Assembly (NCBI RefSeq): GCF_002952775.1
Contig: NZ_CP025066.1
Span: 62,001 to 126,000, forward strand
From: Halalkaliarchaeum desulfuricum
GTDB taxonomy: Archaea; Halobacteriota; Halobacteria; Halobacteriales; Haloferacaceae
Direction: 5' to 3'
Length of the DNA stretch: 64,000 nucleotides
The translations under genes were made by a program, and so were the position numbers. The notes beneath the pieces were generated by a model that was given only the letters and a program-made list of their open reading frames with translations, was not told where the DNA came from and made no database searches. Below are positions 6,429 through 42,565 of this stretch, one piece after another (the first letter of the stretch is position 1; each line of letters begins with the position of its first letter).

Positions 6429-6537
6429 ACGCGCGAGTACGTAATCGTCCCTCAAAAGGATATGTCAGACGCACGCACGACGGCCAGTGCCGATGCATCC
6501 CGAAAGGACTACTATCGTCGGCAGAAGAGGTGCGGAC

Positions 6538-11004: not shown

Positions 11005-11608
11005 CGCGGAATCGAACGGAAACGACGGAGGCTCGGCCGAGAAACTTCCCGAGGCGACCGTCGACGAGGTAGAACGGCTCACTCGCCTCGCCAGACGGGC
11101 GTCCGACGACGACGAGGCCGCCCTCTACCGTCGTGAACGAGATCGACTCCTCCAGGAGTACGGGTTCGCGCCGCGATATCGCGAGAGTGACGACACGCTC
11201 GTCTGTTACCCGAGCGAGTGGATGGCGGACGGCACCGCCCAACTGGACCGGATCGAGGATCCGGATCGGGCCAGCGAAATAACGCTTTCCGGACCGGGAG
11301 ATCCCGATCGCTACGACGAGGTGGAGACACACAACGCCGAGATCGTCGAAGCGGTGGCCGACCAGTACGGCGCCGTCCACGGGGCGAACGCCCGCGCGTT
11401 CGCCGACTTCATGGGGAACCACTACGTCAAGCGGGTCGATCGGGCGACGGCAGACGAGATCGCGGAGTTCAGAGAGGAATACTTCCCCAGAAACGCCTGG
11501 CCGAGCGACGAACAGCGCGATCGGATCGCCCAGTCGCTTTCGTACGTGTTCGAGGCCGCCGACGGGTCGCTTCCTCCGGGGACACAGCTCTCGGAGGAAT
11601 TGGAGTGA
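10997..11608 (+). CDS. RnhA operon protein (conserved haloarchaeal)
   Basis: 203 aa, acidic. Conserved-looking features: VERLTRLARRASDDDEAALYRRERDRLLQEYGF, LVCYPSEWMADGTAQLD, and VEAVADQYGAVHGANARAFADFMGNHYVKRV. This protein is known to me only as the conserved partner encoded after rnhA in haloarchaea; no activity is established. Translation is likely coupled to rnhA through the 8-base overlap. Confidence 0.85.
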   Translation: MTDAESNGNDGGSAEKLPEATVDEVERLTRLARRASDDDEAALYRRERDRLLQEYGFAPRYRESDDTLVCYPSEWMADGTAQLDRIEDPDRASEITLSGPGDPDRYDEVETHNAEIVEAVADQYGAVHGANARAFADFMGNHYVKRVDRATADEIAEFREEYFPRNAWPSDEQRDRIAQSLSYVFEAADGSLPPGTQLSEELE

Positions 11609-40190: not shown

Positions 40191-40313
40191 GCCTCGAGTG
40201 AGGGGAAGGAGACGGAAAGCCCTTCCGCGAGTCTCGCTCACACAGGGAAATGACCCGTGCGAGCGGTCGCGACTGACTACCGACAGACACCGACTGACCA
40301 CCGACTGACGTTT

Positions 40314-40327
40314 GACAGACGTCTGTC
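40314..40327. promoter_or_regulatory. Perfect 14-bp palindrome upstream of cdrL
   Basis: GACAGACGTCTGTC, exactly palindromic, ends 15 bases before the TATA element of cdrL. Its half GACAGACG matches the GTAAGACG motif found around cdrS at six of eight positions. A good candidate operator for a ribbon-helix-helix protein. Confidence 0.7.
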
Positions 40328-40342
40328 GGACAGGAAGGAAGA

Positions 40343-40350
40343 TTAAAATA
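40343..40350 (+). promoter_or_regulatory. TATA element of cdrL
   Basis: TTAAAATA, 23 bases before the cdrL ATG at 40373, in the place expected for a leaderless haloarchaeal transcript. Confidence 0.6.
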
Positions 40351-40372: not shown

Positions 40373-40984
40373 ATGAGCAAGATCACCTTCCGCGCGGACG
40401 ACGACCTCGTCGAGCGGCTGGAGGCGTACGACGCCTCCAAAAGCGAGGTCATGCGGGAGGCACTTCGCACGTACCTCGATGCGTCCGACGGCAGTGAAAC
40501 AGGGGGCGTTTCCTCCGGACCGTCGCCGGAGAGCGCGGCGGACGGCCGGGCCGGCGTAGCGGAGGACGGTATCGACGCACTGATCGCCCAGCGAGTCGAC
40601 GAACTCGTCTCCGAGCGGCTCGACGCCCGATTCGGATCGTTTGCGCCGGCGTCAGCGCCGGAAGTGACCGTAAACGTCAGTCTCGAGGGTGCTGCCGCCG
40701 AAGATGCAGACTCGACTGTCACACACGAAACGGAGAGTGATACGGACGGGGACGCGCGTAAGACGGAGCGCGAAAACGCGGGTGACCAGGCGAAAACGCC
40801 GCGTAAGACGTGCGCGCAATGTGGAGATGAAGTACCGGGAGAGCACGTGTACTGCCCGAACTGCGGCGAAAAGTCGTCGCGTCGCGTGTTCTGTGACTGC
40901 GGAGACGAGCTCCGGTCTGACTGGTCGTTCTGTCCGAGTTGCGGCCGTCGAACGCCGGCTGCGGACGTCCTCGATCCGAGATAA
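40373..40984 (+). CDS. cdrL: Ribbon-helix-helix and zinc-ribbon regulator CdrL
   Basis: 203 aa. The N-terminal RHH domain is [33 protein letters not shown]; a long acidic linker follows; the C-terminus carries two zinc ribbons, [19 protein letters not shown] and [19 protein letters not shown]. Haloarchaeal CdrL is encoded upstream of cdrS-ftsZ2 and regulates that operon. The gene order here is identical. The DNA contains two GTAAGACG sites inside the linker region. Confidence 0.9.
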
Positions 40985-41074
40985 GCAGCTATACCGAACG
41001 TGCAAACGTCGAAAACGAACGCCTCGAGGCTGTTTACGGCCGATATTCTATAATGTCTTACGTTAGCCGGTACT

Positions 41075-41084
41075 TTTAAGTATA
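41075..41084 (+). promoter_or_regulatory. TATA element of the cdrS-ftsZ2 transcript
   Basis: TTTAAGTATA in a locally A/T-rich stretch between cdrL and cdrS. It would place the transcription start at about 41105, directly on the GTAAGACG-GT-CGTCTTAC palindrome. Confidence 0.6.
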
Positions 41085-41106
41085 TCCCATCGGTGGGTAT
41101 GATTGC

Positions 41107-41124
41107 GTAAGACGGTCGTCTTAC
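41107..41124. promoter_or_regulatory. GTAAGACG palindrome, probable operator of cdrS-ftsZ2
   Basis: GTAAGACG, spacer GT, CGTCTTAC. A second, more widely spaced pair follows at 41175-41182 (plus) and 41201-41208 (minus), and a 7/8 match at 41054-41061. The placement around a TATA element is typical for a repressor or autoregulator. Confidence 0.72.
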
Positions 41125-41224
41125 AGCGTGACGCCGTTCCGGGGTGGGTCGTCCACGTCGGGCGGTTTTCGCGTGTAAGACGGGTGCCAACATGGCCGGC
41201 CGTCTTACCGGGGGAACATAAAAT

Positions 41225-41404
41225 ATGGAGCGTGTGACACTTCGCATCCCGAAACAGCAGATCGAGGAGGTCGAACAGATGGTCGAGACCGGCCAGTTCC
41301 CGAACCGCTCGGAGGCGATCCGATCGGCGGTGCGGGAGATGATAAACGAAAACGACGGCGAAGCCGACTCGCGTCGCCGGAACCACAACTGGGCGAAGGT
41401 GTAG
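41225..41404 (+). CDS. cdrS: Short ribbon-helix-helix regulator CdrS
   Basis: 59 aa. [20 protein letters not shown], then [20 protein letters not shown] gives one RHH (CopG-like) domain; the tail [17 protein letters not shown] is charged. In haloarchaea CdrS controls ftsZ2 and cell division and is cotranscribed with it. The stop at 41402-41404 is three bases from the ftsZ2 ATG. The gene is short enough to be missed by automatic callers. Confidence 0.93.
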
Positions 41405-41407
41405 ACG

Positions 41408-42565
41408 ATGCAGGATATCGTCAAAGACGCGATGGAGAACGCCCGGATCGAGCAGCGCGAGATGGACGACGCCATGGACGACGAGGACTTCGGAGATCCC
41501 CGGATCGTCATCGTCGGCTGTGGCGGCGCCGGAAACAACACGGTGAACCGACTGTACAACATCGGCGTCGACGGCGCCGACACCGTGGCGATCAACACGG
41601 ACAAACAGCACCTCAAGATGATTGAGGCCGACACGAAGATCCTCGTCGGCAAATCCCTGACGGCCGGGCTCGGCGCGGGTGGCGACCCCGACGTGGGCGA
41701 GCGCGCGACCGAAATGGCTCAGGGCACGATCAAGGAGGTACTCGGCGACGCCGACCTGGTGTTCGTCACCGCCGGCATGGGTGGCGGCACCGGGACCGGC
41801 GCGGCGCCGGTCGTCTCGAAGATCGCCAAAGACCAGGGCGCGATCGTCGTCGGCATGGTGTCGACGCCGTTCAACGTCGAGCGCGCCCGCACAGTGAAAG
41901 CCGAGGAGGGGCTCGAACACCTCCGCGGCGAGGCCGACTCGATCATCGTCCTCGACAACAACCGACTGCTGGATTACGTTCCCAACCTGCCGATCGGGAA
42001 AGCGTTCTCGGTGATGGACCAGATCATCGCCGAGACGGTCAAGGGAATCTCCGAGACGATCACCCAGCCGTCGCTGATCAACCTGGACTACGCGGACATG
42101 TCCACGATCATGAATCAGGGCGGCGTCGCGGTGATGCTGGTCGGCGAGACCCAGGACAAAAACAAAACCCAGGAGGTCGTCAACGACGCGATGAACCATC
42201 CGCTCTTGGACGTGGATTATCGCGGCGCGTCCGGCGGGCTCGTCCACATCACGGGCGGCCCCGACCTCACGCTGAAGGAGGCCGAGGGCATCGCGGACAA
42301 CATCACCGAACGGCTCGAGGCGAGCGCCAACGTGATCTGGGGTGCCCGGATCCAGGACGAGTACAAGGGCAAGGTCCGCGTCATGGCGATCATGACCGGC
42401 GTCCAGAGCGCGCAGGTGCTGGGCCCGTCCACGCAAAAGCAGGCCGACAAGTCCCGCGCGAGCATCGACGACGAGTCGTTCGACGCCGCCGACCGCGCGT
42501 CCTGGGAGTCCGACGGCGGACGCGAACCGCAGGAGACGAACAACGGTCTGGACGTCATCCGATAG
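41408..42565 (+). CDS. ftsZ2: Cell division GTPase FtsZ2
   Basis: 385 aa tubulin homologue. [21 protein letters not shown], the GTP signature GGGTGTG at 125-131, [40 protein letters not shown], and the T7 loop [15 protein letters not shown]. The N-terminal extension and the C-terminal NNGLDVIR motif are characteristic of haloarchaeal FtsZ2, which acts at midcell with FtsZ1 and in constriction. Cotranscribed with cdrS. Confidence 0.97.

Follow-up and report, generated by a model that had tools for sequence, protein, structure and literature searches.

The window analyzed here, a 64-kb stretch of the Halalkaliarchaeum desulfuricum genome, carries cdrL immediately ahead of the cdrS operon, which includes ftsZ2:

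40373..40984, plus strand: cdrL, 203 aa, with an N-terminal ribbon-helix-helix (RHH) domain (residues 4-36), the CdrL middle region (62-134) and a double zinc ribbon (147-191)
41225..41404, plus strand: cdrS, a 59-aa RHH protein (Pfam RHH_1, 33.3 bits)
41408..42565, plus strand: ftsZ2, in the cdrS operon, above the TIGR00065 (ftsZ) cut-off (G000:103480-104451)

CdrL is reported only from Halobacteria (PMC7439475). CdrL scored 22.8 bits against RHH_1 (cut-off 20.5), 34.2 against CdrL_M and 31.2 against DZR; CdrS likewise exceeds the RHH_1 cut-off, so that the initial annotation was right to call both local regulators RHH proteins. The strand residues are K3-T5-R7 in CdrL and R3-T5-R7 in CdrS, and these were invariant in nearly all sequences compared. 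Strand residues at such positions in RHH proteins contact DNA bases.

A single eight-base word recurs within and between these genes. The six exact copies and the one 7/8 copy listed in the initial annotation were all located at the positions it gave; that the copies at 40758 and 40803 lie inside the cdrL coding sequence is a point it did not make. The sites and the promoter element of cdrS-ftsZ2 are as follows:

40758..40765, plus strand: site S1, exact GTAAGACG, within the cdrL codons CGT-AAG-ACG (Arg-Lys-Thr)
40803..40810, plus strand: site S2, exact GTAAGACG, within cdrL codons CGT-AAG-ACG, 45 bp past S1
41054..41061, minus strand: site A, GTAAGACA (7/8 match), immediately 5' of the BRE/TATA of cdrS
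41074..41080, plus strand: TATA-like element of cdrS-ftsZ2 (TTTTAAG; aligned consensus TTTTATA in 50 genus representatives)
41107..41114, plus strand: site B, exact GTAAGACG, first palindrome arm, at the predicted transcript start
41117..41124, minus strand: site C, exact GTAAGACG, second palindrome arm, its core centre 11 bp from that of B
41175..41182, plus strand: site D, exact GTAAGACG, in the presumed leader of cdrS-ftsZ2
41201..41208, minus strand: site E, exact GTAAGACG, in the presumed leader, immediately 5' of the GGGGGAA...ATG translation start region

Sites B and C (41107/41117), described earlier as a near-perfect palindrome at the predicted start of the cdrS-ftsZ2 transcript, proved to be a perfect 8+8 dyad with a spacer of 2 nt, of the form GTAAGACG-NN-CGTCTTAC. 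Because the TATA-like TTTTAA lies ~30 bp 5' of 41107, the start is predicted to fall within a few bases of that position. When the promoters of 50 genus representatives were aligned on B, the TTTTATA consensus was centred ~29.5 bp 5' of B, which would place the cdrS-ftsZ2 start no more than a few bases from B.

The whole genome (3,313,120 bp) contains 21 copies of GTAAGACG, six of them inside 451 bp near cdrL-cdrS, and the word is not clustered elsewhere. The background is therefore ~1 copy per 158 kb, rather than the one per 32 kb assumed in the initial annotation. Shuffling the window gave an expectation of 1.6 copies, and six were reached in 1 of 100 shuffles; for six copies within 451 bp the corrected Poisson probability is ~1e-15, which places the cluster beyond chance.

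The earlier proposal depended on the sites being conserved 5' of cdrS in relatives. We sampled cdrS loci from named genomes and from whole genomes spanning ~95 genera of the order, and added loci from ~40 genera, one per genus, as well as genomes without the strict palindrome. The sites were found at near-fixed positions throughout the haloarchaea. Sites A-E occupy matching places in Halorubrum, Halobellus, Haloquadratum, Haloplanus, Haladaptatus, Natrialba, Haloterrigena, Haloarcula, Halovenus, Natronomonas and Halorussus, among others, with single sites lost in some, and a presumed congener (G392) retains all seven sites. The 220 bp 5' of cdrS in 52 genus representatives contained 217 GTAAGAC cores, compared to 1.2 in shuffles. 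Of 392 haloarchaeal genomes, 355 contained a single palindrome of the form GTAAGACR-N1-4-YGTCTTAC, with none listed as having more, and a reversed-pattern control gave ~0. It lay 60-160 bp 5' of cdrS in 48 of the 51 genomes examined, and many genomes that lack the strict palindrome carry, in the same place, a version with no spacer or one that differs by a single base. In H. desulfuricum itself, the sole palindrome of this type (A-type, for the A in GTAAGAC) with no mismatch is that of the cdrS promoter. Two near-identical cdrS loci were also seen on a single complete chromosome record (CP132292.1), close to its opposite ends, possibly an assembly overlap.

Over the 217 sites the conserved unit is YGTAAGACR, with flanks that are almost unconserved; this 9-bp unit is a quasi-palindrome with symmetric outer bases (YGT...ACR). 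The spacer between B and C is 2 nt in 38 of 44 genus representatives, 3 nt in four and 0 nt in two, and the spacing of this inverted pair, with core centres 11 bp apart, fits a general RHH operator on which adjacent dimers occupy one face of the DNA. Site A, in the minus orientation, is exactly 53 bp 5' of B in most genera having it and is flipped, at -65, in another group of genera. Site D lies 62-68 bp 3' of B where present and is absent from several genera; in nearly all genera, site E starts 21-33 bp 5' of the cdrS ATG.

The two sites within cdrL encode Arg-Lys-Thr (RKT) in the linker that joins the middle region of CdrL to its zinc ribbons. Among 125 RKT tripeptides in the sampled cdrL genes, 110 are written CGT-AAG-ACR and 14 are written CGT-AAA-ACG (CGTAAAACG), and CGT makes up 15% of the other Arg codons in the same genes. 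The Arg codon of RKT was CGT in 24 of 24 genus representatives (P=1.4e-20, a figure inflated by shared ancestry). The constraint on synonymous codons at RKT is clear, and since the tripeptide is almost always spelled CGT-AAG-ACR, selection acts on the DNA. Site S1 is missing from many genera, notably the Natrialba group; S2 is kept in the congener, and several genera have GTAAGACG or GTAAAACG there. Chance, a repeat family or a need for Arg-Lys-Thr in CdrL has a negligible probability of accounting for the cluster. Two sites do encode the tripeptide in a conserved gene, but the codon choice, the lack of clustering elsewhere in the genome and the fact that most sites are non-coding and kept across genera all argue against such an origin, which the conservation data already contradict.

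Sites B, C, D and E could instead act as RNA, forming hairpins in the ~115-nt cdrS leader that affect translation or mRNA stability. Folding of the leader does exceed that of shuffles (z -4.2), and cdrS-ftsZ2 of Halobacterium salinarum has been reported as probably regulated post-transcriptionally (PMC8303175). However, the fold score follows from the presence of four complementary words, and pairing ends at the edge of the word: the next outward pair forms in 7 of 44 cases for B/C and 2 of 31 for D/E, and position 8 pairs in just 13 of the 31 D/E cases. The invariant core is uninformative for covariation and the flanks pair inconsistently, which is not the pattern of an RNA leader element. 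In addition, D is often missing, and three sites lie outside the cdrS transcript, A preceding the TATA box and S1 and S2 lying in cdrL. We therefore consider a role as RNA improbable; the leader structure may be a by-product.

The array is, with high confidence, a candidate operator. The initial annotation had interpreted the cluster as operators of the local RHH regulators, and the conservation of the sites, their near-uniqueness in each genome and the RHH_1 matches lend support to this. The best explanation overall, to which we assign a probability of about 0.72, is that an RHH regulator, most likely CdrL, uses the cluster as its operator array. ChIP-seq of CdrL in Hbt. salinarum gave a single reproducible peak, 5' of cdrS-ftsZ2 (PMC7439475), and the occurrence of one palindrome per genome mirrors this single binding region. 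At the level of the promoter the sites are where CdrL binds in vivo, as they flank or overlap the cdrS promoter, and in 355 of 392 genomes, as in H. desulfuricum, the palindrome is unique. CdrL is thus predicted, with good confidence, to be the main binder.

Both the binder and its stoichiometry are what we infer from these properties. One RHH dimer would occupy each YGTAAGACR, whose symmetric outer bases fit a two-fold dimer, and two dimers would sit abreast on B/C, one helical turn apart, covering the predicted transcription start. CdrL bound there would interfere with the initiation of cdrS-ftsZ2 transcription or with escape from the promoter. Site A adjoins the TATA box on its 5' side, D and E would lie in the leader, and S1 and S2 are ~300-350 bp 5', inside cdrL; all five could strengthen or nucleate a larger or looped complex. 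Repression of cdrS-ftsZ2 by CdrL is somewhat favoured, by position only. A positive correlation between the expression of cdrL and that of cdrS-ftsZ2 has been reported for metal stress (PMC7439475); activation or co-regulation would account for it no less well than repression.

The sites are not confined to genomes that have CdrL. CdrL was undetected in six haloarchaeal genomes, yet these keep GTAAGAC sites. In these genomes the tRNA-Tyr gene adjoins cdrS; elsewhere it lies just beyond cdrL. The number of cores was 1-4 where CdrL was undetected compared to a mean of 4.4 (P=1.5e-4, a comparison confounded by phylogeny). Exclusive dependence of the array on CdrL was therefore dropped, and binding by CdrS or some other protein may occur as well. 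Seven of the sampled loci retained GTAAGAC with no cdrL between tRNA-Tyr and cdrS, and in the Actinarchaeum-like CdrL-less group a GTAAGAC site persists even at -473.

Retention of the sites without CdrL would be explained if CdrS regulated itself through the A-type sites, alone or together with CdrL, with CdrL binding secondarily. ChIP-seq of CdrS in Haloferax volcanii identified ftsZ1 as a target, with a motif 50 nt 5' of its start (PMC8406309), and the regions upstream of ftsZ1 in relatives carry GTCAGACG-NN-CGTCTGAC or close forms. Across 16 ftsZ1 loci we counted 18 copies of GTCAGAC (C-type) and one of GTAAGAC. The best C-type palindrome of the H. desulfuricum genome is at ftsZ1, as is the top C-type match in a Haloferax-like genome (G196, the genus being a guess). 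A C-type match was also found at a PRC-barrel gene of H. desulfuricum, which may be the counterpart of the PRC-domain gene in the published list of CdrS targets (PMC8406309). The word of the array is thus not the one common to published CdrS targets. Upstream of psmB and pan, also published CdrS targets, there was no convincing C-type site in relatives under the start codons chosen, so these two count neither for nor against the assignment. Given the C-type word at ftsZ1 and other CdrS targets, we take C-type to be the word of CdrS and A-type that of CdrL; CdrS appears, by prediction, to use GTCAGACR, one base from GTAAGACR.

The 220 bp 5' of cdrS contained 36 copies of GTCAGAC and one of GTAAGAC in 20 genomes from the phylum that are not haloarchaeal, suggesting that CdrS autoregulation is ancestral and that this promoter exchanged one word for the other on the line leading to haloarchaea. 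That origin, and a difference of one base between the two words, would suit continued autoregulation by CdrS. But the CdrS ChIP-seq table from Hfx. volcanii lists 18 sites and its own promoter is absent (PMC8406309), the known or likely targets of CdrS bear the C-type word, and an A-type palindrome that occurs once per genome is too rare for a regulator with 18 sites. CdrS as the primary reader of the array is therefore unlikely, though it is the most serious of the alternatives, and CdrL remains the preferred binder.

Several further CdrS-type sites were noted. At 6464-6481 of the window, a site with three mismatches lies 35 bp 5' of the gene for a DUF7139/DUF7140 predicted membrane protein, and the Haloferax-like genome has a comparable site ahead of the gene for a comparable protein, ~16 kb from ftsZ1; the protein possibly belongs to the HVO_0739 family, which falls strongly on CdrS repression. 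A palindrome with two mismatches, GCCAGACGGGCGTCCGAC, is present at 11090-11107 of the window. In both H. desulfuricum and the Haloferax-like genome, a CdrS-type palindrome lies between divergent genes for a DUF7093 zinc-ribbon protein and a DUF6432 protein; the pair is apparently the same in both and is a candidate conserved CdrS target. An intein-bearing HerA-like ATPase gene (L272:1558-3018) adjoins a CdrS-type palindrome with one mismatch. Many genomes of the Natrialba group have a C-type half-site, CGTCTGAC, between D and E, and there CdrS may touch its own promoter.

CdrS-type units also precede cdrL, next to its promoter element:

40270..40331, no strand assigned: six CdrS-type GWCNGAC units, centred at 40274, 40285, 40295, 40306, 40317 and 40328
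40341..40350, plus strand: TATA-like element of cdrL (gattaaaata), read from the sequence and identical in the congener G392

Successive units are 11, 10, 11, 11 and 11 bp apart and the last is ~18 bp before the cdrL TATA. This is the longest such phased array in the window, with at most two units in phase in 60 local shuffles, and the congener has four phased units. GTCAGAC or GTCGGAC occurred 35-110 bp 5' of cdrL in 77 of 112 loci, compared to 2.4 in shuffles. The units are probably CdrS sites that control cdrL, as predicted from their word, and a feedback loop is implied: CdrL would set cdrS-ftsZ2, and CdrS would set ftsZ1, other division genes and cdrL. A fuller picture, in which a single base per arm (A or C) separates CdrL from CdrS, the two regulators are looped, the cdrS promoter switched from C to A and the operator is written partly in synonymous codons of cdrL, is one to which we would give even odds.

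The operators of Arc and MetJ are familiar examples of short inverted sites recognized by RHH domains. The operator of NikR, GTATGA-N16-TCATAC (PMC7055735), is likewise made of short inverted sites of RHH type, and its half-site GTATGA resembles GTAAGAC and the variant GTATGAC. In NikR, however, the half-sites are 16 bp apart and are bridged by a tetramer, whereas the arms of the haloarchaeal palindrome are 0-3 nt apart and the other sites of the array are distributed over 450 bp. Close precedents also come from the two regulators themselves. The CdrS motif of Hfx. volcanii (Liao et al. 2021, PMC8406309) is symmetric and is read by the other local RHH protein; judged from ftsZ1 promoters, it shares the two-arm layout of the array and has ftsZ1 as a target, and the ftsZ1 form differs by one base per arm from the cdrS-promoter palindrome. 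The CdrL region of Hbt. salinarum (Darnell et al. 2020, PMC7439475) involves the same regulator, promoter and single genomic target, so the action of CdrL on cdrS-ftsZ2 is already known. The text of that paper gives no motif or palindrome; the word, its layout, the coding copies and their conservation are defined here. In openly available papers we found no prior report of the word, its class-wide layout or its uniqueness to a single locus, nor of the coding copies, the one-base split from the CdrS word or the probable CdrS sites before cdrL; a literature search for GTAAGAC in haloarchaea returned nothing relevant.

Few transcriptional controllers of cell division are known in archaea, and CdrL and CdrS are two of them. 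With the exact word, its place in the promoter and the single discriminating base in hand, point mutations can be used to test their network. The locus also offers a clean case of related regulators diverging in specificity, and of operator sites kept in coding sequence through the choice of codons.
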